Positions 7,166 through 55,996 of a stretch of DNA of 55,996 nt are shown piece after piece. Each line of letters begins with the position of its first letter. Within the stretch, counting starts at the first letter, position 1. The translations under genes were made by a program, and so were the position numbers. This DNA is from an uncultured Eubacteriales bacterium (GTDB lineage: Bacteria > Bacillota > Clostridia > Oscillospirales > Oscillospiraceae): NCBI GenBank assembly GCA_900321275.1, contig ONVI01000040.1, positions 1-55,996 on the forward strand, written 5' to 3'. The notes beneath the pieces were generated by a model. The model worked only from the letters and a program-made list of their open reading frames with translations, made no database searches and was not told the origin of the DNA.

Positions 7166-7360
7166 ATGGATGTTGATCTGATTTTTAAGATTGCCGCGGT
7201 CGGGATTCTGGTTGCGGTTTTGAACATTCTCCTTCAGCGCTCGGGCAGGGAAGAGCAGGCGCTGATGACAACGATTACCGCGCTTGTCGTAGTGCTGATG
7301 GTCGTCGTGCAGAAAATCAGCGAGCTTTTTCATATGATCAAGGCGCTGTTTAATCTCTGA
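7166..7360 (+). CDS. spoIIIAC: SpoIIIAC, small membrane protein of the SpoIIIA complex
   Basis: This 64-residue protein has two membrane helices separated by SGREEQALMTT, the usual SpoIIIAC form and length. An AGGAGA ribosome site precedes the ATG. It is similar in design to SpoIIIAD just downstream, and both are thought to be inner-membrane parts of the channel. The gap to spoIIIAD is only 2 bp. Confidence 0.93.
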   Translation: MDVDLIFKIAAVGILVAVLNILLQRSGREEQALMTTITALVVVLMVVVQKISELFHMIKALFNL

Positions 7361-7362
7361 GA

Positions 7363-7749
7363 ATGGAGCTGCTTCTGAAATGCGCGGCGCTGGCTGTTTT
7401 CAGCGCGCTTACCGGGCTTTTGCTGCGGCGCTTCAATCCGGAGCTGGCCTTTTGTCTGAGCACCGCGGCCGCTGCGGTCATTCTGCTTGCGGGCGGGACA
7501 CTGATCGGAGAGCTTCGCGGCCTGATCCATGAGACGGAACTGATCTTCGGCAATGTCGGGATGCAGATGAAGCCCGTGCTGAAATGCCTGGGGATTGCGG
7601 CGGCGAGCAAATTCGCCTCGGATCTCTGCCGGGACGCTTCACAGACCGCCCTGGCCTCGGCGCTGGAATATACGGGCGGGCTGTGTGCCGCCGCTGCCGC
7701 GCTGCCCGCTGTGCTGAACGTAATGAAAATGATAGGCGGTATGCTGTGA
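7363..7749 (+). CDS. spoIIIAD: SpoIIIAD, membrane protein of the SpoIIIA complex
   Basis: This 128-residue protein has about four membrane helices: the N-terminus, LAFCLSTAAAAVILLAGG, a middle segment with IAAASKFASDLCRDA, and a C-terminal ALPAVLNVMKMIGGML. It is the expected partner of SpoIIIAC in the membrane. Its stop overlaps the GTG start of spoIIIAE. No strong ribosome site precedes it, so translation probably relies on coupling to spoIIIAC. Confidence 0.92.
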   Translation: MELLLKCAALAVFSALTGLLLRRFNPELAFCLSTAAAAVILLAGGTLIGELRGLIHETELIFGNVGMQMKPVLKCLGIAAASKFASDLCRDASQTALASALEYTGGLCAAAAALPAVLNVMKMIGGML

Positions 7750-8840
7750 AAAAGATCCTGATCATGCTGGTGATTCTTCCGGCGTTCTTCGGGTGTGCCT
7801 GGGCCGAGGAAATCGACGGACAGGCTTTGGAGATCTTTGAGTCCGGAAAGATGGAACAGGGATTGAAGGAGCACGAGCTTGAAATCATCGGGAGCGTCGA
7901 GCCTGCGCAATTCGATGCTTTCCCGGCGCTCAGCAGGCTCTGGAACGCGTTTCTTTCCGAAATACAAAACCGGCTGCGGGAGAATCTGGGATTTGCCGTT
8001 GAGCTCTTTGGACTGATCCTTTTCTCCGCGCTGGCCGGCGCCCTCTGCGGCGATGAGAAAATCCGCGCAGCGGTCGAAATCCTCACCTTCTGTTTTGCGG
8101 CGTTCCTTCTGGCCGGGAATGTGGACAGCCTTGTCTCCCAGACGCTGGAGACGATCTATCGGCTGTCGGATTATTCCCGCACCGCGCTTCCCGTGACCTT
8201 TACCGCAGCAGCGGCGGGCGGTGCGGTCAGCTCCTCGGCCGTGCGCTATGCGGCGGCATATCTGGCAATGGACGTGATGATGTCGCTGTCTCAGAAGGCG
8301 GTGATCCCGCTGGTCTATGACGCGCTGGCGCTGGGGCTTGCCAATATCCTGTTCCCCAATCCCATTCTGAGCGCCATGGAGGCGCTTTCCAAATGGGCGG
8401 CGAAAACCATTATGACCTGGGCGGCGCTCGCCTTCACCGCCTACCTGAGTCTGAGCTCCGTCGTCAGCACGTCTGTCGACGCCGCCGCCATCAAAGCGAT
8501 GCGCAGCGTGGTTTCGGGCGTTTTGCCGGTGGTGGGCGGGATGCTGTCTGACGCTTCGGCGGCCGTCCTCTCCGCCGCTTCGGTGATACGCAGCTGTACG
8601 GGCGCGGTCGGGCTGATCGCCGTGAGCGTGGTGTGCGCAGGCCCCCTTGCCCTTTTGTGTGTAAAGCGCTTTCTTTTCAAAGCGGTTGCCGCCGCCGCGG
8701 AGGCCGTGCAGAACCCCAGACTGCAGAAGCTGTTTTCCTGCGTCGGCAGCGCCGCGGGCATGCTGATGGGCCTGCTCGGCTGCAACGCCATGATGCTTTT
8801 CCTCTCCTTTACCGCGGCGATGAAGGCGGTGTCCGCATGA
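7746..8840 (+). CDS. spoIIIAE: SpoIIIAE, polytopic membrane protein of the SpoIIIA complex
   Basis: I start this 364-residue protein at GTG 7746, which overlaps the spoIIIAD stop and gives VKKILIMLVILPAFFGCAWA, a clear signal peptide. An AGGCGG site lies 6 bases upstream. A longer in-frame start at 7584 would run through spoIIIAD and is not believable. The rest is a large multispan region from about residue 80 onward. SpoIIIAE is the largest membrane part of the channel and is essential for late forespore gene expression. It ends with an ATGA overlap with spoIIIAF. Confidence 0.93.
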   Translation: MKKILIMLVILPAFFGCAWAEEIDGQALEIFESGKMEQGLKEHELEIIGSVEPAQFDAFPALSRLWNAFLSEIQNRLRENLGFAVELFGLILFSALAGALCGDEKIRAAVEILTFCFAAFLLAGNVDSLVSQTLETIYRLSDYSRTALPVTFTAAAAGGAVSSSAVRYAAAYLAMDVMMSLSQKAVIPLVYDALALGLANILFPNPILSAMEALSKWAAKTIMTWAALAFTAYLSLSSVVSTSVDAAAIKAMRSVVSGVLPVVGGMLSDASAAVLSAASVIRSCTGAVGLIAVSVVCAGPLALLCVKRFLFKAVAAAAEAVQNPRLQKLFSCVGSAAGMLMGLLGCNAMMLFLSFTAAMKAVSA

Positions 8841-12721: not shown

Positions 12722-13580
12722 TGAATACAAAAAGGAAATCGAAACCGCGCTGGAGACGTACTTTAAACTCCCGGAGAGCATGCCGCAGGCAGGACTTGCG
12801 GAGGCGATGCGATACAGCCTGCTCGCGGGCGGGAAGCGTATCCGTCCGATGCTCGTCCTGGAGTTCTGCCGGATCTCCGGCGGGGATATCCAAGCTGCGA
12901 TGCCCGTCGCCTGCGCGGTCGAGATGCTGCATACCTACAGCCTGATCCATGACGATCTGCCCTGCATGGATAATGATGAGCTCCGCCGCGGTAAGCCCAC
13001 GAACCATGTCGTCTACGGGGAGTGTACGGCTACCCTCGCGGGGGACGCGCTGCAGGCGGAAGCCTTCGGCACGATCCTGCGCTGCGCCCTGCCTCCTGAG
13101 CGGAAGGCCGCCTGCGCCGAAATTCTGGCCGGCGCCGTCGGACTGGACGGGATGTGTGCCGGGCAGTATCTGGATATGCTCTGGGAAGGGCGCAACCTCA
13201 CGGAGCAGGAGCTCACCGAGATCAACAGCCGCAAGACCGGGGCGCTTTTGGCGGCCGCGTGTCAGATGGGCGTCGCGGCGGCGGGCGGTTCGAGACAGAT
13301 GCTCGACTGCGCCGGACACTTCGGCGCCGCGCTGGGGATGGCTTTTCAGATCCGGGACGATATGCTCGACGTTGTGAGCACGGCGGAAGAACTGGGAAAG
13401 CCCATCGGCTCGGACGAGAACGAGAACAAGAATACCTATATGGTGCTCATGGGCTTGGAAGGCTGCCGGAAGACCGTGGAGAAGCTTACGGAATTTTCCA
13501 AAAAGCTGCTGCAAGAAGCCTTCACCGATACCGCTTTTCTGTGCGCCCTTGCAGATGCGCTTTCTGTCAGAGAAAACTAA
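12711..13580 (+). CDS. ispA: Farnesyl diphosphate synthase (polyprenyl synthetase)
   Basis: This 289-residue isoprenyl synthase has the first aspartate-rich motif (HDDLPCMDND, about 82-91), RRGKPTNH after it, and the second motif FQIRDDMLD. It makes C15 (possibly C20) diphosphates from IPP and DMAPP for menaquinone and undecaprenyl lipids. The ATG at 12711 overlaps xseB; the in-frame start 8 codons earlier is less likely. The next gene is dxs, supplier of its precursors, so the two form an isoprenoid unit. Confidence 0.93.
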   Translation: MTTDEYKKEIETALETYFKLPESMPQAGLAEAMRYSLLAGGKRIRPMLVLEFCRISGGDIQAAMPVACAVEMLHTYSLIHDDLPCMDNDELRRGKPTNHVVYGECTATLAGDALQAEAFGTILRCALPPERKAACAEILAGAVGLDGMCAGQYLDMLWEGRNLTEQELTEINSRKTGALLAAACQMGVAAAGGSRQMLDCAGHFGAALGMAFQIRDDMLDVVSTAEELGKPIGSDENENKNTYMVLMGLEGCRKTVEKLTEFSKKLLQEAFTDTAFLCALADALSVREN

Positions 13581-19403: not shown

Positions 19404-19811
19404 ATGACCATCGAAGAATTGGCCGTTGCTTATCATAAAAAGGGCTTCAACTGCGCGCAGAGCGTTCTGTGCGCCTGCGGAAGATACACCGGGCTGGACG
19501 AGAAAACCGCCCTGGCTGTCTCCGGCGGCTTTGGGGGCGGGCTTCGCTGCGGCGAGGTCTGCGGCGCGATATCCGGCGCTGTGATGGCCGCAGGGCTGTG
19601 CTTTCCGTACAGCGATTCGGAAAACCTCGAAGCCAAAGAGACAATTGCAGCGCTTGCCAGAGAGCTGACGGGCGCCTTTCGGGAAAAATACGGCGCTGTC
19701 CGCTGTGAGGAAATCAAGGTCGATACGGCCCGCTGCAATGAATTCATCGCCTTCATGGCCGAGCTTGCCGGACAGATGGTGCAGAACCGGCTAAAAGCGA
19801 CGGAAGCGTAA
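19404..19811 (+). CDS. C_GCAxxG_C_C family redox protein
   Basis: This 135-residue protein has the family cysteines: GFNCAQSVLCACG, then GGLRCGEVCGAISGAVMA (about 47-64), and a last cysteine in ARCNEF. Proteins of this family are thought to bind metal or take part in redox chemistry, but have no settled role. It follows recN after 34 bp, with its own AAAGGAG ribosome site, and a terminator comes after. Confidence 0.9.
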   Translation: MTIEELAVAYHKKGFNCAQSVLCACGRYTGLDEKTALAVSGGFGGGLRCGEVCGAISGAVMAAGLCFPYSDSENLEAKETIAALARELTGAFREKYGAVRCEEIKVDTARCNEFIAFMAELAGQMVQNRLKATEA

Positions 19812-19862: not shown

Positions 19863-19893
19863 GCTGCAGGGTGTTTTGCCTTGCAGCTTTTTT
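19863..19893 (+). terminator. Terminator of the nusB-recN block
   Basis: GCTGCAGG (19863-19870) pairs with CCTTGCAGC (19879-19887, one bulge), followed by a run of six T. Confidence 0.75.
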
Positions 19894-20180: not shown

Positions 20181-22622
20181 ATGTACTATTCTGCGATCGG
20201 TCTGTTGGCGGTGCTGATCCTGCTGATCGAAAATCAGGACGTGATACTGAACCAGGAGGGCGCGTTTGAAAAGCCCGCCTGGAGGGTATACAGGCGCTTC
20301 CTGTTCGCTGTGCTGGCGTATTACATACTGGACATATGCTGGGGCGTCGTTGGGAGCATGAAGCTGCCGAACCTGCTCTTTGCCAACACGACCTTATATT
20401 TTATCGCGATGGCGGTCGGCGTGCTGTTCTGGGTTGAGTATACGGTGGTGTACCTTGACGAGGAGAGCGGCTTCGGAAAGAGCCTGGTCCTGGCCGGGCT
20501 CGTCCTGGCGGGATTCATCACCGTTTTCGCCGTCGTCAACATCTTCACGCCGGTGCTTTTCACCATCGACGGCCAGTGCGTATACAGGGCCCTTCCGCTG
20601 CGCTCTGTCCTGCTTGCCTGCCAGATCCTGCTGCTTTTGCTCATCGCGGTTTACGCTGTTGTGTCGATGTTCCGCAGTCACGCGGAGAAACGGGGCAAGT
20701 ACCGCACCCTGGGACTTTTCGGCCTGTTGATGGCGGTGCTGCTGTTCATCCAGATCTGGTATCCGCTGCTGCCGCTGTATACCATTGCCTACATGCTGGG
20801 CACCTGTCTGCTGCACACCTTCGTCGTCAACGAGGAGAAGGCGGAATTCAAACGCGGGCTTGAGGAAGCGGCGAAGGACAAGCAGCTCAAAAGTACCATC
20901 GAATCCCTTCTGAACAACTTGCCGGGCATGACCTTCACCAAGGATGCCGGGACCGGGGGTTATCTAGCGTGCAACAGGGCCTTTGCGGAGGCTGCCGGTC
21001 AAAAAACCCCGGAGGCTGTGATCGGCCGCACCGATGCCGAGCTCTTTGACGAGGAGATGGCGCGGCACTTTGCCGATGATCAACGCGTGGCGATGTCCAT
21101 GGATGAGCCTTATATTTTCTATGAGGACGAGGTGGACGAAAACGGACGCCGCCTGCAGGTGCAGACCACGCTCATAAAATACAAGGACGACGCCGGACGG
21201 CTGTGCCTGCTTGGCATCAGCCAGGACGTGACGGACATGGTGCGCATCCAACGGGAGAGCGCCACCACGAAAGAGGCCTATGAAAAGGCGCGCAGCACCG
21301 GCCTCATGTATTCCCACATTGCCCAGTCGATGACACGCGGCTACCGGGATATGTATTACGTCAATGTCGACAGCGAGGAGTTCATTGAATACAGCACGGA
21401 TGAGGCGGGCGGCGCGCTCACCGAGCTGAGACGCGGCTGGCATTTCTTCGAGGAGTGCCAGATCGAGGCTGAGCAGTATGTGTATGCCGACGACCGCGCC
21501 GCTTTTATCAAGGCGCTGGATCGAAAGACGCTTATGGACATGCTCGATCGGAACAAGACCTTTGTGATGACCTACCGCCTGATCGCGGAGGACGGCCCAA
21601 CCTACGTCAGCATGCGCGTCTCCCGCATGGAGGATGATGAGCGCTATATCGTCATCGGCGTGACGGACGTGGACGAGCAGGCGAAGCAGCGCCTTGCGGA
21701 GGAACGGATGAAGGAGGAGCGGACGGCCTACACGCGGCTCAGCGCGCTGGCCGGCGATTATCTCTGTATCTATGTAGTCGATCCGGAGACCGGGCACTAT
21801 CGGGAATTCAGCTCGTCCGCGCGCTTCGAGAGCTTCGCGCAGACGAAGGAGGGCGGCGATTTCTATCATACCGTGCTGGAAACGGCCCGCGTATACTGCC
21901 ATCCGGAGGATCTGAACCGCTTTTTCTCCGCCTTCTCCAGGGAAAACATTCTGTCAGAGATCGCCCGCCGCGGCATTTTCACACTGAGCTACCGCATCAT
22001 GATAGAGGGAGAGCCCCGCTACGTGGCGCTCAAGGCCGCCATGGTGGAGGAGAAGGAGGGCAAGCACCTGATCGTCGGCCTCAACGACATCGACGCCCAG
22101 GTTCATCAGGAGGAGGAATATGTCCGGAGTCTTGCCAAGGCGCGCAGGGAGGCCAATACCGACGCGCTGACCGGCGTGAAGAACCGCCACGCCTATCTGG
22201 AGGCGGAGGATCGGCTGAACCTTCAGATCGCGGAAAACCGCGCACCGGCATTTGCCGTGTCGATCCTGGACGTGAACGACCTCAAAAAAGTCAACGATAC
22301 CGAAGGACACGATGCCGGGGATCGTTTCCTGCGCGACGCCTGTATGATCGTCTGCAATATTTTCAGTCACAGTCCCGTCTTTCGCATCGGCGGCGACGAG
22401 TTTGCGGTCATCTCACAGGGCGGCGACTACGCCTGCATCGACGAGCTGATCGGGCGCGTAGGCGAGCATAACCGGGAAGCGATGCACAGCGGCGGCATCG
22501 TGATCGCCTGTGGCACGGCGAAATATGATAACGACGGGAGCGTCGCCTCCGTGTTTGAGCGGGCAGATCAGAACATGTATGAGAACAAGAGCATGCTGAA
22601 AGCGCAGAAGGGAGGGATATGA
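20181..22622 (+). CDS. 7TM-PAS-GGDEF diguanylate cyclase-like sensor
   Basis: This 813-residue membrane protein has about seven helices in residues 1-220 (histidine-kinase 7TM-like), a PAS fold (about 240-350, LNNLPGMTFTKDAG), further PAS-like domains to about 640, and a C-terminal GGDEF domain (NTDALTGVKNRHAY at about 655, RIGGDEF at about 735). The GGDEF is intact, so c-di-GMP synthesis is likely; the RxxD inhibitory site usually 5 residues before it is absent. Residues about 240-500 closely match the kinase encoded next door. The stop overlaps that gene by ATGA, so the two are probably co-translated and sense related signals. Confidence 0.88.
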   Translation: MYYSAIGLLAVLILLIENQDVILNQEGAFEKPAWRVYRRFLFAVLAYYILDICWGVVGSMKLPNLLFANTTLYFIAMAVGVLFWVEYTVVYLDEESGFGKSLVLAGLVLAGFITVFAVVNIFTPVLFTIDGQCVYRALPLRSVLLACQILLLLLIAVYAVVSMFRSHAEKRGKYRTLGLFGLLMAVLLFIQIWYPLLPLYTIAYMLGTCLLHTFVVNEEKAEFKRGLEEAAKDKQLKSTIESLLNNLPGMTFTKDAGTGGYLACNRAFAEAAGQKTPEAVIGRTDAELFDEEMARHFADDQRVAMSMDEPYIFYEDEVDENGRRLQVQTTLIKYKDDAGRLCLLGISQDVTDMVRIQRESATTKEAYEKARSTGLMYSHIAQSMTRGYRDMYYVNVDSEEFIEYSTDEAGGALTELRRGWHFFEECQIEAEQYVYADDRAAFIKALDRKTLMDMLDRNKTFVMTYRLIAEDGPTYVSMRVSRMEDDERYIVIGVTDVDEQAKQRLAEERMKEERTAYTRLSALAGDYLCIYVVDPETGHYREFSSSARFESFAQTKEGGDFYHTVLETARVYCHPEDLNRFFSAFSRENILSEIARRGIFTLSYRIMIEGEPRYVALKAAMVEEKEGKHLIVGLNDIDAQVHQEEEYVRSLAKARREANTDALTGVKNRHAYLEAEDRLNLQIAENRAPAFAVSILDVNDLKKVNDTEGHDAGDRFLRDACMIVCNIFSHSPVFRIGGDEFAVISQGGDYACIDELIGRVGEHNREAMHSGGIVIACGTAKYDNDGSVASVFERADQNMYENKSMLKAQKGGI

Positions 22623-25600
22623 GCATGGAAACAGGTAAACCCGGCATCTCATCGGGTGTGTACAGGGAGAACCCGCCGACCGGACTGCGCCCGCAGTTTT
22701 CGCCCCTCGGCATGTGGGCCTTCTCCATCGGCACCAGCATCGGCTGGGGCTCCTTTATCGTTACCTGCAATACCTATCTGCAGAAATCCGGCCTGCTTGG
22801 AACTGTCTTCGGGCTGCTGATCGGCATGGCGGTCATCCTCGTGATCACCTGGAACCTGCAGTATATGATTCGGACGATGCCGGGCGCGGGCGGCATCTAT
22901 TCCTTTGAAAAAAAGGTCGGCGGCAAGGATCTGGGCTTTCTCGCCTTCTGGTTCGTTCTGCTGACCTATCTCGCCATCCTCTGGGCCAACATGACCTCGC
23001 TGCCGCTGTTCGCCCGCTTTTTCCTCGGAGATCTCTTCCGCTTCGGCTTTTGCTATACGATTTTCGGCTATCAGGTCTGGCTGGGCGAGGCGCTGCTGAG
23101 CATGTGCGCGGTGCTTCTCATCGGCCTTTTGTGCGCGCGGAGTACGCGGCTGTGCAATCACGTGATGATCGCCGCAGCCCTGATCTTCGCTCTCGGCTTC
23201 ACGGTCTGTGCCGTAATCGCCCTGCTGCGGCACGATGGGGGCGCTTACAGCTATGAGCCCATGTACGTGGAGGGCTCGGGCGCTTTTGCGCAGATCGTCC
23301 ACATCGCGGCGATCTCCCCCTGGGCCTTCATCGGCTATGAGAATATCTCCCATTTCTCCGAGGAGTACCGCTTCCCGCTCAAAAAGGTGCGCGGCGTACT
23401 GCTCAGCTCCGTGCTGGTTACGACGCTGATGTATATCTTCGTGTCTCTGCTCTCCGTCTCCGCCTACCCGCCGGAGTACGAGAGCTGGTTTGCCTACATT
23501 CGCGACATGGACAATCTCGAGGGATTCAAGGCTGTCCCCGCATTCTACGCCGCCGAGCGCTATATGGGCAAAACCGGCGTCATGGTGCTGATGCTGTCCC
23601 TGTTCGGCGTCATCCTCACAAGTCTCATCGGAAACCTCATGGCCCTGAGCCGCCTGCTCTTCGCCGCGGGGCGGGGAGGCGAGGCGCCCGCCGCGCTGTC
23701 CGTGCTCAATTCCCGCGGCATCCCGTCCAGGGCCATCGCCGTTGTCGTCGCGGTATCCTTCTTTATACCCTTTCTCGGCAGAACAGCGATCGGCTGGATC
23801 GTGGACGTTACCACGCTGGGCGCAACGCTGATCTACGGCCTGATCTCCCACGCGGTCTACCGCGACGCCCAGCAGAAGCGCCGGGTGCCGGAAAGTATTT
23901 CCGGCGCTGTCGGCCTGCTGCTGATGCTGGCCTTCGGCCTTTTGCTGCTGGTGCCGAGCCTGCTGCCCTTCCACGCGGTGGCGACGGAGTCCTACGCCCT
24001 GTTTATCATCTGGTCTGTGATGGGCCTGATCTATTTTCGCACCCTGCTTCGGCGCGACCGGCACAACGAGCATGAGCAGCGCCTTGTCGTCTGGGCTTTC
24101 CTGCTGATATTGATACTCTTCGCCGCGATGATGTGGGTATCCCGACATACGGAGATCGCCGCCAACGACGCGGTGGACCGCATCTATGCCTACCATCAGG
24201 CCCATCCGGAGCACGACTCGTTGGAGAGTCAGGAGGAGAGAACCGATTTTCTGCGTGAGCAGGCAAAATCGGTCAGCAGCACCAACACGCTCTATACCAT
24301 GGTGTCTCTGGGCCTCTTCCTCGTGATCTTCACCATGCTCCTGAACAATTATAAGGAGACACAGGAGCTCGGAGAAAAGCTCGCGGAGGCGGAAAACGAG
24401 GCGATCGCAGCCCGAAAGATCGCGGAACTCAAGGAGTCTATCTCCTCCCTGCTCGACAATATGCCGGGCATGACCTTCACCAAAGACGCCGAGACCGGCG
24501 TGTACCTCGCCTGCAACCAGGCCTTTGCCGACTATGCCCACAAGGAGACCCCGGACGGCGTGGTCGGGCTCACCGACGCGGAGATCTTCGATGCGGAGAC
24601 GGCTGCCCACTTCGTGGAGGACGACAAGCTTGCCCTCTCCATGGACAGACCCTATATTTTCTATGAGGACGTCCCGGACGCCGCCGGCAATCAGATGCAG
24701 CTTCAGACCACGAAGCTCAAATTCATAGACTCTACCGGCCGCGTCTGTCTGCTGGGCATCTGCCGGGACGTCACCGAGATGGTGCGCATCCAGCATGAAA
24801 ATGCCATGACGAAGGAGGCCTACGAAAACGCCGTCAACTCCGGCATCATGTATACCCATATTGCCAAAACCCTCGCCCGCGACTATACGGACATGTTTTA
24901 TGTAAACCTCGACACGGAGGAGTTCATCGAGTACCGCCGGGGGAGCGAGAGCAGCGCGCTCTCCGAGATGCGGCGCGGCTGGCATTTCTTCAGCGACTGC
25001 AAGGCGGAGCTGGCTGGGCATGTGTACCCCGAGGACCGGGAGGCCTTTCTCAACGCGATGAACCGCCGAAACCTCGTGGCGGCACTGGAGCGGAAGGACA
25101 CCTTTATCATGACCTGTCGCCAGATCGGGGACAACGGTCCGGTCTACGTCAGCATGAAGGTCTCCCTGATGGAGGACGACAAGCACTTCATCATCGTCGG
25201 CATCACAAACGTCGACGCCGAGATGCGTGAGGCCATGGCGAAGAGCGAGGCGCTTGCCGGCGCCCTGACCGCAGCGGAGGAGGCGAACAAGGCCAAGACC
25301 TCCTTCCTCTCCAGCATGAGCCATGAGATCCGCACGCCCATGAACGCCATCATCGGGCTCGATACGCTTGCCCTGCGGGATCAGACCATCAGCGGGCAGA
25401 CACGGGATTATCTGGAGAAGATCGGGGAGAGCGCCAAACATCTGCTCAACCTGATCAACGAGATTCTTGACATGAGCCGCATCGAATCCGGGCGCCTGGT
25501 GCTGCGCAGAGAGGTGTTTTCCCTCAGCGCCATGCTGGAGCAGATCAATACCATGGTCATGTCTCAGTGCGGCGACAAGGGGCTTGCCTATGAATGCCGC

Positions 25601-26857
25601 ATTCTCAACCGGGTGGATGACGCCTATATCGGCGATGATATGAAGCTCAAGGAGGTGCTGATCAATATCCTCTCGAACGCCGTCAAATTCACCGAGGCGC
25701 CCGGCAGCGTCACAATGACGGTAGAGCGGACGGCGGAATTTGAAGATCAGTCCACGCTCTGCTTCCGCATCAGGGATACCGGCATCGGCATGGACAAGGA
25801 ATTCATCCCCAAAATCTTCGACGTTTTTTCCCAGGAGGACGGCAGCCGCAAAACCAAATACGGCAGCACCGGCCTCGGCATGGCCATCACAAAGCGCATT
25901 GTGGAGATGATGAACGGCTCCATCAGCGTCGAATCCGAGAAGGGCGTCGGAACCGAATTTGCCGTGACGGTCACGCTGCGAAACTGCGATCAAAGGGGCG
26001 CGGACAGAGACAGCAAAGTCGATCCGCACGACCTGTTTGTCCTGGTGGTGGACGACGATAAGATTGCGGCGGAGCATGCCAGAATGGTGCTGGACGAGGT
26101 CGGCATCCGGGCCGACATCTGCACAAGCGGGGAAGAGGCCCTGCGCATGATGGAGCTGCAGCATACAAAGCACAGGCCTTATAATCTGGTACTGATGGAC
26201 TGGAACATGCCGGGGATGAACGGCCTGGAGGCTTCCGCCGAGATCAGAAAACAGTATGACAGTGAAACGACCGTCGTCGTCCTGACGGCATATAACTGGG
26301 ACGACATCCAGGAGGAAGCGCACCGCGTCGGTGTGGACAGCTTTCTTGCAAAGCCGCTGTTCGCCGCAAATGTCATCGAGGAATTCGAGCGGGCCGCGCG
26401 CAAGAACAACATGGTCGTCAAGGAGAAGAACCGCGCCGATCTTTTCGGGCGGCGTATCCTGCTGGCGGAGGATATGGAGATCAACGCCGAGATCATGATG
26501 GACATTCTTGAGATGGAAAACATGCAGGCCGACCACGCCGAGAACGGCAGAATCGCGGTCGAAAAATTTGCCGAAAGCGCCGTCGGGGATTATGCGGCGA
26601 TCCTGATGGACGTGCGTATGCCGGAGATGGACGGACTGGAGGCCGCGTCGGCGATTCGCGCCATGAACAGGGAGGACGCAAAGAGAATCCCGATCATCGC
26701 GCTGACGGCCAACGCCTTTGACGAGGACGTGCAGAGATCGCTCCAGGCGGGGATGAATGCCCATCTCACAAAGCCCATTGAGCCGAACCACCTCTACCAG
26801 GCGTTGGGAGAGCTGATCTATCAGGCGGAACATAGAAATGAGGTACAGAAAACATGA
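22619..26857 (+). CDS. APC amino-acid permease fused to a hybrid histidine kinase
   Basis: This 1412-residue protein starts with an APC-superfamily permease (about 25-475; helix 1 region IGTSIGWGSFIV, then PGAGGIYSFEKKVGG, about 12 helices). Two further helices (about 488-508 and 557-575) flank a short outside loop. PAS domains follow (about 605-850), then HisKA (SHEIRTP, His902), HATPase (DDMKLKEVLINILSNAVKF, DTGIGM, GSTGLGM; about 1000-1120) and two receivers with Asp1194 and Asp1331. Phosphate would pass inside the same protein, with no DNA-binding output. The layout recalls CbrA-type transporter-kinases, but with an APC rather than SSS module. It lies between a GGDEF sensor and an amino-acid enzyme, with ATGA overlaps at both ends. 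I infer that it senses an amino acid. Confidence 0.9.
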   Translation: MSMETGKPGISSGVYRENPPTGLRPQFSPLGMWAFSIGTSIGWGSFIVTCNTYLQKSGLLGTVFGLLIGMAVILVITWNLQYMIRTMPGAGGIYSFEKKVGGKDLGFLAFWFVLLTYLAILWANMTSLPLFARFFLGDLFRFGFCYTIFGYQVWLGEALLSMCAVLLIGLLCARSTRLCNHVMIAAALIFALGFTVCAVIALLRHDGGAYSYEPMYVEGSGAFAQIVHIAAISPWAFIGYENISHFSEEYRFPLKKVRGVLLSSVLVTTLMYIFVSLLSVSAYPPEYESWFAYIRDMDNLEGFKAVPAFYAAERYMGKTGVMVLMLSLFGVILTSLIGNLMALSRLLFAAGRGGEAPAALSVLNSRGIPSRAIAVVVAVSFFIPFLGRTAIGWIVDVTTLGATLIYGLISHAVYRDAQQKRRVPESISGAVGLLLMLAFGLLLLVPSLLPFHAVATESYALFIIWSVMGLIYFRTLLRRDRHNEHEQRLVVWAFLLILILFAAMMWVSRHTEIAANDAVDRIYAYHQAHPEHDSLESQEERTDFLREQAKSVSSTNTLYTMVSLGLFLVIFTMLLNNYKETQELGEKLAEAENEAIAARKIAELKESISSLLDNMPGMTFTKDAETGVYLACNQAFADYAHKETPDGVVGLTDAEIFDAETAAHFVEDDKLALSMDRPYIFYEDVPDAAGNQMQLQTTKLKFIDSTGRVCLLGICRDVTEMVRIQHENAMTKEAYENAVNSGIMYTHIAKTLARDYTDMFYVNLDTEEFIEYRRGSESSALSEMRRGWHFFSDCKAELAGHVYPEDREAFLNAMNRRNLVAALERKDTFIMTCRQIGDNGPVYVSMKVSLMEDDKHFIIVGITNVDAEMREAMAKSEALAGALTAAEEANKAKTSFLSSMSHEIRTPMNAIIGLDTLALRDQTISGQTRDYLEKIGESAKHLLNLINEILDMSRIESGRLVLRREVFSLSAMLEQINTMVMSQCGDKGLAYECRILNRVDDAYIGDDMKLKEVLINILSNAVKFTEAPGSVTMTVERTAEFEDQSTLCFRIRDTGIGMDKEFIPKIFDVFSQEDGSRKTKYGSTGLGMAITKRIVEMMNGSISVESEKGVGTEFAVTVTLRNCDQRGADRDSKVDPHDLFVLVVDDDKIAAEHARMVLDEVGIRADICTSGEEALRMMELQHTKHRPYNLVLMDWNMPGMNGLEASAEIRKQYDSETTVVVLTAYNWDDIQEEAHRVGVDSFLAKPLFAANVIEEFERAARKNNMVVKEKNRADLFGRRILLAEDMEINAEIMMDILEMENMQADHAENGRIAVEKFAESAVGDYAAILMDVRMPEMDGLEAASAIRAMNREDAKRIPIIALTANAFDEDVQRSLQAGMNAHLTKPIEPNHLYQALGELIYQAEHRNEVQKT

Positions 26858-27801
26858 GAGAATTGGACAGCTTCCCGAAGGTCTCCCTCGGCGTATTTCC
26901 CACGCCGGTGCATAAGCTGGAGAATATCAGCAGGCTTTTGGGGACAAATGTTTTGATCAAGCGTGACGATCTGACCGGCCTCGGCCTGGGCGGCAACAAG
27001 ACCCGGAAGCTGGAATACCTTCTTGCCGACGCCCAAAAGCAGGGGGCGGAGATCGTTTTCACCACCGGCGGCGCACAGTCCAACCACGCCATGCTGACCG
27101 CTGCCGCAGCCGGAAAGCTGGGGATGAAGCCGATTCTGATCCTGAAAAAGCGCGGCGTAACCGAGCGGCTGGGCAATCAGCTCCTGGAGCATCTGATGGG
27201 AACGGACGTGCGCTTTGTCGATACCGATGATTATGCCGACATATACGCGGAGATGGATCGGGTCGGAAAGGAGCTCGGCAGGCCCTATTACAAAATCCCC
27301 TGCGGCGGCTCGAACGCGCTGGGATCGCTGGGATATGTGGAATGCGCAAGAGAGATACGGGATCAGGGCATTCCGGTCGATCATCTGATCTGCGCCGAGG
27401 GCAGCGGCGGAACGATGGCTGGCCTTGCGCTGGGGGCAAAGCTCTATCTGCCGGATACAAAGGTATACGGCATGATGGTGGATACCGATCCCTTCGATCA
27501 GATCACCCCGGCGCTGATGAGAGAGGCGGCCGCCCTGCTGGAGGCCGATGTGACGGTCGAGGCCTCCGACTTTACGCTGCGGGATATGTGCGGCCCGGGA
27601 TACGCGATCGCCTCAAAGGCCGGGAACGACGCGGTTGCGCTGATGGCGAGGCAGGAGGGAATTTTCCTGGACCCTGTCTATACCGGGAAAGCCTTCGCGG
27701 GCCTTCTGGAGATGGCCGGGGAAGGCCGCTTCGGATCGGGAGAGAATGTGTTGTTTCTCCACTCCGGCGGCGCAGGCGGCCTGTTCGCGATCAGGATGTA
27801 A
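26854..27801 (+). CDS. D-cysteine desulfhydrase / ACC deaminase family PLP enzyme
   Basis: This 315-residue type II PLP enzyme has the family start (FPTPVHKLENIS), the lysine in LGGNKTRKLEYL (about 48-59), TGGAQSNHAML, and the phosphate loop in CAEGSGGTMAGLALG. Relatives split D-cysteine to pyruvate, sulfide and ammonia, or deaminate ACC or other D-amino acids; sequence alone does not decide. Its start overlaps the stop of the permease-kinase by ATGA, so it is translated with that sensor. This suggests that the permease domain handles the substrate of this enzyme. Confidence 0.88.
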   Translation: MRELDSFPKVSLGVFPTPVHKLENISRLLGTNVLIKRDDLTGLGLGGNKTRKLEYLLADAQKQGAEIVFTTGGAQSNHAMLTAAAAGKLGMKPILILKKRGVTERLGNQLLEHLMGTDVRFVDTDDYADIYAEMDRVGKELGRPYYKIPCGGSNALGSLGYVECAREIRDQGIPVDHLICAEGSGGTMAGLALGAKLYLPDTKVYGMMVDTDPFDQITPALMREAAALLEADVTVEASDFTLRDMCGPGYAIASKAGNDAVALMARQEGIFLDPVYTGKAFAGLLEMAGEGRFGSGENVLFLHSGGAGGLFAIRM

Positions 27802-27827: not shown

Positions 27828-28078
27828 AGGTGCCGATGTTCTCTCATCGGCACCTCAGACTGTAGACAAACCCTTGCAAACCAAGTTGGTCTTGCAAGGG
27901 GGATCTGTGAAGGGGGACGGGGAGTCCCCCTTCACGTACAATCCATGCAAAAAGGGAACTTTTTCGGAAGTTCCCATTTTTGCCTCTCAAGCTGTCGACA
28001 CTTTGTCGAGAGCTTGAGGGGCCGATGTTCTCTCATCGGCCCCTGCGATTTCGCATGGTTATGCATTTTGATACGCCC
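27828..28078. repeat. Array of six consecutive hairpins between dcyD-like gene and topB
   Basis: Six stems stand one after another: 27828-27855 (11 bp), 27871-27900 (9 bp), 27907-27935 (12 bp), 27947-27983, 27986-28018 and 28018-28043 (10 bp). The first and last share the core CCGATGTTCTCTCATCGG. The tail to 28078 (GGTTATGCATTTTGA) matches the end of repeat family C at 40547-40594, so the right part looks like a partial copy of that family. The rest of the gap to 28178 holds no gene. Confidence 0.75.
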
Positions 28079-50949: not shown

Positions 50950-53163
50950 GTGGCAGATAAGCTGAGAAAGGACACGCTCATGCAATTGCAGGTCAGCCTG
51001 TCAAAGAAAATCGTCATAACGGTGTTAATCATGGCTGCACTGATCCTGCTTGTGTTTTATTGCGATATTCCCAATCCGAATATGATTCTGATCGCGGGAC
51101 TTGTCCTGTGCTCCGCGCTGTTCGGATATGGAGGCGGGATTGTCGCGGCGGCGATCATGTTCGGCTACACATTATTCTTTTTCTCCACGGATCACAGCTT
51201 TACGCGCTTTACGCCCCAGAATACGCAGAAGGTCATTGTCTCCATTATTGGCATTGTCGCGGATATGCTGCTTGTCTGCGATTTGAAAAGAGCGGAGATC
51301 CGTCAATTCAAAGCCGTTGATGCTCTGAATGCCGAATTGCAACGCGAAGCCGCTTCTCTCGATACCATTCACGAGATGCTCTCGTCGGGCAGATGGGCTA
51401 TGGACTTTAATAAAGAGGGCGTGATGGTCGGGGTCAAATGGAGCGACGAGTTCCGGAGAATGCTGGGCTACCACAGCAGGGAGGACTTTCCGGACGTTCT
51501 GGAATCCTGGTCCGACCTGCTGCATCCCGACGACAAAGAACGGGTGCTGAAGGAGTTTCAAGACACCATCTCCGACTACACCGGTCAGAAGACCTATGAC
51601 GTGGAATACCGCCTGCTGACGAAGAACAGAGGCTACCGCTGGTACCGGGCTGTGGGCAAGCTCATACGCCGCCCCGACGGCTCTCCCGTCACCTACGTCG
51701 GGATCTTTATCGACATCACGGAACGAAAGGAGACCGCGCAGAATCTCTCTGCGGCCAGGAGAATGGCGGATATCGATTCCCTGACGGGCGTCAAAAACAA
51801 GCATGCCTATACGCAATGGGAAGAGATAGTCAATGAGGGAATCAAAGGCGGGACGCAGGAACCGTTTGCAGTCGTGGTTTGTGATATCAATAATCTGAAA
51901 TCCGTCAACGATCTGTATGGGCATAAGGCGGGGGACAGCTGTATTCAAAGCTGCAGCTCGAAGCTCTGCAATATCTTCACCAACAGCCCTGTATTCAGGG
52001 TCGGCGGGGATGAGTTCATCATTTTCCTGTCCGGTGAAGATTATTACCGGCGCAATGAGCTGATGACACGGGTCAACGCAATTCCGAAGGACCCCGCGAA
52101 GATCAGAATGGGAGAAACCGTGTCCGCCGGTATGGCCGAATATGACAAGGATAAGCACAGGTCTCTTCTGAATGTTGTCGAAGAAGCCGACAAAGCCATG
52201 TATGCGAGAAAACAATATCTGAAAGAGACCGTACTGAAAACTGATGATAAACCTGAAAGTGAAACAGCTTCAGATTACATTCCGGTCATCCATGCCCGCA
52301 AGGCCGTTCTGATCGCCGACGACATCGAAATGAACCGCGAGATCCTCGGCGACCTGCTCGAAGAGGATTATGACATTTTCTATGCCGCGGACGGCGTCGA
52401 GACCCTGCAGGTGCTGCGCGACCACGCAGGAGAGATCGACCTTGTGCTGCTCGATCTGATCATGCCGAACATGTCCGGACGGGAGGTGATCGCGGAGATG
52501 CAGCTCGATGAAGAATTGGTGTCGGTCCCGGTGATCATCCTGACCACGGACCAGAAGGCGGAGCTTGACTGCCTGCGCATCGGCGCGATGGACTTCATCC
52601 CGAAGCCTTATCCGGATATTGAGATCGTCAAGGCCCGCATCAACAAGTGCATCGAGCTGTCCGAGGACCGTGACCTGATCCGCCACACGGAGCGCGACAA
52701 GCTCACGGGACTGCTGAACAAGGACTATTTCTTCCGCTACGTCTACCGCCTCGACCATATCTACAAGGACACGACGCTGGACGCCGTCGTCTGCGACGTG
52801 AACCGTTTTTACGCGATCAATCAGCAATACGGCAGGAAATTCGGCGACCGGGTGCTGAGCGACATCGGCGCTGCCCTGCGGAAGCTGGCGCGGCAGATCG
52901 GCGGCATCGGCTGTCGGCAGGGCGGCGACACCTTCCTGCTTTACTGCCCCCATCAGGAGGATTATGCGTCTTTGCTGCGGCAATTCACCGCCGACATATT
53001 TGCGGAGGAAGAGACGGCGGACAAGGTCAGCCTGCGCTTCGGCGTCTTTGCAAACGCGAAGCGTGAGCCGGATGCGGAAGAGCGCTTCGCCCGCGCATCC
53101 GCCGCGGCGGAAAGAATCAAGGACGATCCCGATACGATCTGCGGATACGACGACGAAACCTGA
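50950..53163 (+). CDS. Membrane PAS-GGDEF-REC-GGDEF signalling protein
   Basis: This 737-residue protein starts at GTG 50950 (a later ATG at 50980 is possible). It has three or four membrane helices (about 18-100), a PAS/PAC (about 135-260), an intact GGDEF domain (RVGGDEF at about 350), a receiver (ADDIEM, Asp498/499 in LVLLDLIMP, about 452-570) and a second GGDEF-like domain (about 580-735) whose motif is changed to GGDTF. So one diguanylate cyclase is likely active and one degenerate. No RxxD site precedes the first motif. A hybrid kinase starts 63 bp after the stop, a likely phosphate donor. Confidence 0.88.
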   Translation: MADKLRKDTLMQLQVSLSKKIVITVLIMAALILLVFYCDIPNPNMILIAGLVLCSALFGYGGGIVAAAIMFGYTLFFFSTDHSFTRFTPQNTQKVIVSIIGIVADMLLVCDLKRAEIRQFKAVDALNAELQREAASLDTIHEMLSSGRWAMDFNKEGVMVGVKWSDEFRRMLGYHSREDFPDVLESWSDLLHPDDKERVLKEFQDTISDYTGQKTYDVEYRLLTKNRGYRWYRAVGKLIRRPDGSPVTYVGIFIDITERKETAQNLSAARRMADIDSLTGVKNKHAYTQWEEIVNEGIKGGTQEPFAVVVCDINNLKSVNDLYGHKAGDSCIQSCSSKLCNIFTNSPVFRVGGDEFIIFLSGEDYYRRNELMTRVNAIPKDPAKIRMGETVSAGMAEYDKDKHRSLLNVVEEADKAMYARKQYLKETVLKTDDKPESETASDYIPVIHARKAVLIADDIEMNREILGDLLEEDYDIFYAADGVETLQVLRDHAGEIDLVLLDLIMPNMSGREVIAEMQLDEELVSVPVIILTTDQKAELDCLRIGAMDFIPKPYPDIEIVKARINKCIELSEDRDLIRHTERDKLTGLLNKDYFFRYVYRLDHIYKDTTLDAVVCDVNRFYAINQQYGRKFGDRVLSDIGAALRKLARQIGGIGCRQGGDTFLLYCPHQEDYASLLRQFTADIFAEEETADKVSLRFGVFANAKREPDAEERFARASAAAERIKDDPDTICGYDDET

Positions 53164-53226: not shown

Positions 53227-55996
<2,770 letters not shown>

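Follow-up and report, generated by a model that had tools for sequence, protein, structure and literature searches.

A large family of apparent permease-derived receptors, represented by an amino acid permease fused to a hybrid histidine kinase in an Oscillospiraceae genome

In the genome of an uncultured, gut-type bacterium of the Oscillospiraceae, a single gene joins a complete amino acid permease of the APC type to a hybrid histidine kinase. The gene lies in a stretch of 55,996 nucleotides (contig ONVI01000040.1 of assembly GCA_900321275.1; hereafter the window), which is the complete contig C38 of a 2.74-Mb, 101-contig genome that is 93% complete. An earlier note, made from the letters of the window alone, had described the fusion and had read it, together with a coupled gene for a pyridoxal phosphate (PLP) enzyme, as a system that detects or imports the amino acid that the enzyme breaks down. 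We find that the fusion is a member of a large new variant of transporter-derived receptors and that the PLP partnership is not upheld. Probably, the APC part serves as a permease-derived membrane receptor ("transceptor") module whose output ends in cyclic di-GMP (c-di-GMP), with the PLP gene outside the device. The fusion gene and its parts are as follows.

22619..26857 (+), APC permease, helical hairpin, PAS region, HisKA, HATPase, REC and REC in one protein of 1412 residues (Pfam, frame)
22679..24058 (+), APC (LeuT-fold) domain, residues 21-480, in which helices 1 and 6 are broken
23333..23353 (+), helix-6 signature GYENISH, residues 239-245, with E241 and H245 in the fused type and mostly D and Q in stand-alone permeases
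24080..24430 (+), extra helical hairpin behind the permease, helices 488-528 and 535-604 (hydropathy of 82 rows; model)
24419..25258 (+), PAS region, residues 601-880, with PAS_4 at 612-722 followed by a further stretch (736-880) to which Pfam assigns no name
25259..25993 (+), HisKA and HATPase_c with the phospho-acceptor motif SHEIRTP (Pfam, motif)
26009..26404 (+), receiver domain 1, LVLMDWNMP (Pfam, motif)
26453..26824 (+), receiver domain 2, AILMDVRMP (Pfam, motif)

The fusion is encoded in a single unbroken frame from ATG to stop. Its permease part, which the earlier note had placed in residues 25-475, matches both AA_permease (PF00324; residues 34-445, 80.4 bits against a cutoff of 24.6) and AA_permease_2 (PF13520; residues 28-445, 77.6 bits against a cutoff of 27), and no match of the protein to the SSS (SLC5) family was listed at an E value of 0.01. 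PAS_4, HisKA (892-958), HATPase_c (1005-1120), and two Response_reg stretches follow, every family above its Pfam cutoff; with a histidine in HisKA, a HATPase domain, and aspartates in the receivers, the C-terminal part is a hybrid histidine kinase, and, as the note had stated, there is no DNA-binding output among the Pfam matches. The predicted structure (predicted local distance difference test score 92) is an SLC7/AdiC fold followed by the helical hairpin, and its core is a complete LeuT-type fold. The hairpin carries two hydrophobic peaks and is modelled as continuing, as a signalling helix, into the PAS region; in the structure comparison, for which only Foldseek-preselected chains were aligned, this segment was barely covered for known folds. 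Could the joining of permease and kinase be a sequencing or assembly error? There is next to no probability of this, and we rule it out: the same architecture recurs in independent genomes, and the frame is unbroken. The closest orthologue, at locus L064 in another genome, matches it in architecture and in its upstream GGDEF gene, and its APC part is 84% identical to that of the window; thus, the fusion is no assembly artefact, and it is confirmed as genuine and not an isolated oddity.

How common are APC fusions, and to what is the permease joined? With the APC part as query, 29 of 200 genomes from the bacterium's own taxonomic family gave matches; 23 fusions from 14 genomes could be aligned, counting the one in the window (20 fetched regions and two other loci of the window's own genome). 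That genome alone holds three APC fusions: the one described here, an APC-GGDEF-REC-EAL protein of 1461 residues on contig C22, and a protein of 1119 residues on contig C54 that joins APC to a histidine kinase and two receivers (APC-HK-REC-REC). A second search, of a named genome collection, yielded at least 585 relatives of the APC part, the best 80 of which gave 78 loci. Most of these come from rumen and gut assemblies recorded as Bacillota; Treponema, Coriobacteria, Chloroflexi, and other names also occur as labels, and such labels may be wrong for metagenome assemblies. These loci encode 81 relatives whose APC match spans 430 residues or more, and every one of them runs on into an output: GGDEF in 38, GGDEF-EAL in 19, PAS-HK in 8, PAS-GGDEF in 8, HK without PAS in 5, and HD-GYP in 3, the last unlabelled by our reference set but matched by Pfam to HD_5, a domain of HD-GYP type. 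An APC-HD-GYP protein is encoded, for instance, by Ruminococcus sp. YE71 (L131, 8956-11334). This count excludes shorter APC matches (e.g., the first gene of L065, L075, and L085) and the APC frames of L076, L086, and L140, which the gene selector dropped. When all frames were scanned, 72 of the 78 loci held an APC frame with a tail of more than 150 residues, and the remaining six (L098, L100, L103, L121, L133, and L135) are APC-GGDEF fusions in which the match had extended into the GGDEF part; a fusion is present in each of the 78 best loci examined. In 68 of the 81 relatives, the permease is joined directly to GGDEF, EAL, or HD-GYP, which bears out the link to c-di-GMP that the note had suspected from the neighbouring GGDEF gene. 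Apparently, then, this is a large family in which one permease-derived sensor is joined to many outputs, mostly for c-di-GMP synthesis or breakdown, and for which a description in the literature is lacking.

Some of these genes occur side by side. Locus L044 (5333-17475, minus strand), from genome G174 of the same genus, has three tandem APC fusions with outputs GGDEF, GGDEF-REC-EAL, and HK-REC-REC, followed by genes for a histidine phosphotransfer (HPt) protein and a REC-EAL protein. A cluster of PAS-HK-REC(-REC), APC-GGDEF, and REC-EAL genes recurs at L100, L115, L133, and L135.

We next consider how the outputs are distributed over APC phylogeny and how fused domains differ from their stand-alone sister permeases, which were found in other families. 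When 133 APC domains were placed on a tree by a quick method, one branch divides 105 fused from 28 stand-alone domains with a Shimodaira-Hasegawa-like approximate likelihood ratio of 100; the stand-alone rows are L027 and those rows from the fetched stretches that have the helix-6 pattern D/G.IPQ. On a tree of 104 rows, the output label requires 18 or more changes, where a single origin for every one of the seven labels (stand-alone being one) would need 6. A more careful tree of 58 rows, 57 with at least 50% pairwise identity to the window's domain and one added outgroup row, requires 11 changes against 4. A single origin of the PAS-HK type is not rejected on the 58-row tree (approximately unbiased test, P = 0.495), and we therefore do not claim its repeated gain. 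Within the window's own set of 21 rows (support 100/94), nine outputs are PAS-HK, seven PAS-GGDEF, three GGDEF, and two GGDEF-EAL. As read from these trees, the repeated swaps are the pattern that an input module with exchangeable outputs would leave. In helix 6, the fused type has Glu241 and His245, as against mostly Asp and Gln in the stand-alone permeases; one distant stand-alone exception, L035 (40 bits), reads E..PQ. Altogether, nine positions switch consistently between the two types, G335S being among those that played no part in the choice of rows.

The fusion gene is the middle one of a run of three, GGDEF gene, fusion, and PLP gene, with a 4-base ATGA overlap at each junction. The remaining features of this unit are these.

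19863..19887 (+), terminator-like hairpin ahead of the three-gene unit (consensus scan, not proof)
20181..22622 (+), membrane-anchored GGDEF protein of 813 residues, with a hydrophobic N-terminal part, a PAS region, and a GGDEF domain (Pfam, motif)
26854..27801 (+), PLP enzyme of the D-cysteine desulfhydrase/cysteate lyase family, 315 residues, overlapping the kinase gene by ATGA and its neighbour in this genome only
27954..27975 (+), terminator-like hairpin behind the PLP gene (consensus scan, not proof)

The two flanking hairpins, which are consensus matches only, would be consistent with a three-gene unit. The GGDEF partner has a GGDEF domain with an intact active-site motif and is thus a predicted diguanylate cyclase; its PAS region is 54% identical to fusion residues 574-876. 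Its gene is a conserved neighbour: leaving the window aside, a GGDEF gene lies directly 5' of the PAS-HK fusion in seven of the eight orthologous loci with upstream sequence, overlapping it by four bases in L064, L065, and L077 (where the partner has a different N terminus), standing 33-79 bases away in L070, L109, and L075, and preceding it in L067 as well. It is missing in L066; L068, having no upstream sequence, is not among the eight. Two HPt genes above cutoff were found in the window's genome, and both adjoin other APC-fusion genes. On C22, the stop of the APC-GGDEF-REC-EAL gene lies within the first of these HPt genes, behind which comes a gene for a single receiver, again with 4-base overlaps (L009, 4207-9355, minus strand); the second lies between a REC-GGDEF-EAL gene and the APC-HK-REC-REC gene of C54. 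One PilZ protein was also found. Because the window kinase has receivers and no HPt domain of its own, and because the HPt genes adjoin other APC-fusion genes, we propose as its likeliest route, judging by gene content, a phosphorelay in which APC kinases pass phosphate by way of HPt to REC-EAL enzymes.

How might such a receptor work? The LeuT-fold core would bind or move a small amino acid-like solute and alter its own conformation in doing so; this change would pass through the hairpin (488-604) to the PAS region and so set kinase activity. Phosphate could then travel from the histidine to a receiver aspartate, on to an HPt protein, and to the receiver of an EAL or GGDEF-EAL enzyme. Given the genes present, this relay and the co-encoded GGDEF protein would bring the signal to c-di-GMP. 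The observations beneath this reading are the architecture, homology, fold prediction, motifs, conserved GGDEF partner, and the position of both HPt genes beside APC-fusion genes. Several points weigh against it. The loci examined are the best-scoring of at least 585 relatives, and the statement that all are fused therefore applies to this sampled top and not to every APC relative; the stand-alone rows in the position comparison and (apart from L027) in the 133-domain tree were chosen by their helix-6 pattern, and one long-branched stand-alone row, L038, was omitted from that tree. A strict H-box pattern matched only two of the five PAS-less HK fusions in the named-genome set. By Pfam, the GGDEF partner has no receiver domain; therefore, direct signalling from the kinase to this partner is not explained. 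Finally, the HPt genes lie on other contigs of an assembly that is 93% complete and could serve other kinases.

Two other roles for the APC domain deserve weighing. It might still move solute, with transport and not binding setting the kinase, as has been considered for CbrA. This is a tentative but quite possible alternative: core positions are conserved between fused and stand-alone permeases, the predicted core is complete, and passages of PMC7918813 report that the SSS domain of CbrA transports histidine. Against it stand the nine positions that switch consistently between stand-alone and fused domains (G335S included), which suit a change of role. Very unlikely, by comparison, is that the domain is a mere membrane anchor and dimerisation platform with the PAS region as the sensor. 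A PAS region is indeed present in both the fusion and its GGDEF partner, but in 65 of the 81 relatives no match to the first PAS stretch is found behind APC, conservation runs throughout the core, and keeping all 12 helices of the core, with the broken ones conserved, would be a high price to pay for an anchor. A receptor role remains our preferred reading of the permease part.

Does the PLP gene belong to the device? The coupling through ATGA is present at 26854-26857, as the earlier note had it, and the PALP protein that follows scores above the cutoff for the D-cysteine desulfhydrase family (TIGR01275; 298.2 against 289.4 bits). It does not reach the equivalog cutoffs for CuyA (NF052482; 300.2 against 450 bits), for D-cysteine desulfhydrase (PRK03910-type), or for 1-aminocyclopropane-1-carboxylate (ACC) deaminase (TIGR01274; 181.9 against 392 bits), and the last function is rejected on that score. 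The T of its VYTGK motif aligns with D-cysteine desulfhydrases, whereas the ACC deaminase 1rqx has E there. A unit that pairs sensing or uptake of D-cysteine, cysteate, or a similar amino acid by the permease part with its breakdown by the coupled enzyme would account for the overlap, for the family assignment with its VYTGK threonine, and for a stand-alone sister permease that, in an unrelated genome, sits behind a true CuyA gene. The CuyA score argues against such a unit, and so does the distribution of the gene. With every frame of at least 120 residues searched, and the window's self-match recovered, no PLP gene was found near the APC hit in any of 100 other loci (98 retrieved by their APC hits, together with C22 and C54; a few of them nearly identical to one another), in flanks of up to ~10 kb, many contigs being shorter. 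A PLP homologue of 77-79% identity exists, away from the fusion, in three of the eight genomes that carry a PAS-HK orthologue; the other five, among them the genome with the closest orthologue (L064), yielded no close homologue, although the assemblies are incomplete. Conversely, in 13 loci with PLP homologues (57-82% identity), none of the four called genes to either side is a signalling gene.

The overlap itself is also commonplace. In six stretches of the same genome, 14 of 62 codirectional neighbour pairs have 4-base overlaps of the NTGA type, a count that omits the kinase-PLP pair, where the selector of open reading frames (ORFs) preferred an antisense frame. We therefore reject the ATGA overlap as strong functional evidence; the coupling is real in this genome and is weak evidence of function. 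Since such overlaps are common and the gene is absent from the 100 other loci, a sense-and-degrade link is unsupported as a conserved feature, and the PLP gene, being beside the fusion in none of the eight orthologue genomes, is rejected as a conserved partner. The gene-neighbourhood survey thus went against the functional linkage that the note had proposed, which we consider unlikely; most likely, the PLP gene is a lineage-specific neighbour rather than part of the device.

What might the APC receptors bind? The stand-alone sisters offer a lead. At L195 (4756-11709, plus strand), two stand-alone permeases (one at 7264-8715) lie between a sulfoacetaldehyde acetyltransferase (Xsc) gene (TIGR03457; 772 bits against a cutoff of 676) and an aminotransferase gene whose best match is the solved taurine:2-oxoglutarate aminotransferase 6jix (526 bits; the runner-up scores 262); these are candidate taurine permeases. 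L197 (3936-8624, plus strand) has, in a row, a hisD-family dehydrogenase gene, a racemase-like gene (named by eye), a CuyA cysteate lyase gene (544 bits against a cutoff of 450), and, directly behind it, an APC permease gene, possibly a cysteate or sulfonate operon. Three permeases at L196 are near genes for a class-III aminotransferase, among whose listed solved relatives there is no taurine enzyme, and for alanine dehydrogenase; one at L199 is near genes for a class-III aminotransferase and an aldehyde dehydrogenase. Marker genes thus accompany 4 of 20 stand-alone loci of the helix-6 D/G..PQ type and none of the other 16, a count that describes and does not test because the markers were taken from those same four loci. 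A curated organosulfonate enzyme is present in two of the four, Xsc in L195 and CuyA in L197. Exporters of the TauE/SafE type are near two further stand-alone loci, L208 and L210. Outside the window, no fused locus has a marker at E ≤ 1e-15. Taurine as a nutrient of the bacterium itself found no backing: its genome has no match to Xsc at E ≤ 1e-30 and, in a search of its own that had no positive control, none to the L195 taurine aminotransferase at E ≤ 1e-20. An aminosulfonate ligand is a weak but testable lead.

Because a stand-alone sister at L197 adjoins a true cysteate lyase gene, a substrate class shared by permease and PLP enzyme stays conceivable. CuyA is reported in passages of PMC10507020 to act also as a D-cysteine desulfhydrase. 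A broader history can be imagined, although we think it rather unlikely as a whole. One ancestral fusion would have turned an aminosulfonate or amino acid permease, with sisters of taurine or cysteate type, into a dedicated receptor family marked by the helix-6 changes of Asp to Glu and Gln to His. This receptor would then have become a universal plug-in input for c-di-GMP enzymes and phosphorelays in gut and rumen bacteria, where a diet- or bile-derived sulfonate or amino acid might control surface behaviour; in the window, the PLP gene would mean that the receptor had locally been joined again to a lyase acting on that class of substrate.

Elsewhere in the window, a gene for a C_GCAxxG_C_C putative redox-active protein (19404-19811, plus strand) lies 5' of the unit, with the first terminator-like hairpin between them, and no Rfam riboswitch scores above the gathering score. 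A second kinase gene (53227-55996, plus strand) runs past the contig end; its product has the same PAS region and is 58% identical to the fusion over residues 600-1028, and a gene for a PAS-GGDEF-REC protein (50950-53163, plus strand) precedes it. These two genes are a further, APC-free branch of the same network. At L064, an ORF of 100 residues (13218-13520, plus strand) directly behind the closest orthologue has an "ALEDVAGG" stretch, peptide-leader-like by eye, and no Pfam match.

How do APC fusions compare with known systems? Among the matches listed, all in open-access full text, no description of APC-GGDEF or APC-kinase fusions was found, which does not show absence from print, and a 2022 census of sensory inputs to c-di-GMP signalling (PMC8846402) does not use the word "permease" in its main text. 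APC transporters (AdiC, ApcT, GkApcT, LAT/y+LAT, and CAT) are 13-18% identical to the APC part in structure alignments; unlike them, the fusion has a C-terminal hairpin and signalling domains and, in helix 6, Glu and His in place of the stand-alone sisters' Asp and Gln. The PLP neighbour falls within the TIGR01275 subfamily but below all the equivalog cutoffs given above. Sensor Kinase-MFS fusions (TCDB 2.A.1.34; listed in a table of PMC3924187) likewise join a transporter fold to a sensor kinase, but the transporter is of the unrelated major facilitator family. Receptors of the 5TMR/LytS type also use a transporter-like membrane fold as a kinase receptor, although, as passages of PMC11109136 have it, the fold is that of the S component of ECF transporters and not of an amino acid permease.

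The closest analogues are the SLC5-STAC sensors (CbrA, CrbS/MxtR), as the note had recognized in its comparison with CbrA. In these proteins too, as described in parts of PMC5715377, PMC7918813, and PMC13022988, an N-terminal LeuT-fold transporter sits on a histidine kinase with PAS (and, in CrbS, REC), the output is C-terminal to the transporter, and STAC proteins occur with GGDEF outputs as well (PMC5715377, in part). The APC fusions differ in that their transporter is of APC/SLC7 type and not SLC5, apparently in their linker, which in the window's protein is modelled as two long helices (488-528 and 535-604) and not a four-helix bundle, and in that the loci examined come mostly from gut and rumen Bacillota with GGDEF, EAL, and HD-GYP as the commonest outputs. 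Because the transporter family differs and the predicted linker, compared without a STAC profile, is unlike STAC, we regard the APC fusions as resembling SLC5-STAC sensors without being members. Transporter-kinase transceptors are described as rare in bacteria in passages on CbrA (PMC13022988), and the APC family would be a second, separate transporter family in the same use, with most of its outputs acting on c-di-GMP. Varied outputs on one input, together with stand-alone sisters for comparison, would allow direct study of how a transporter becomes a receptor.

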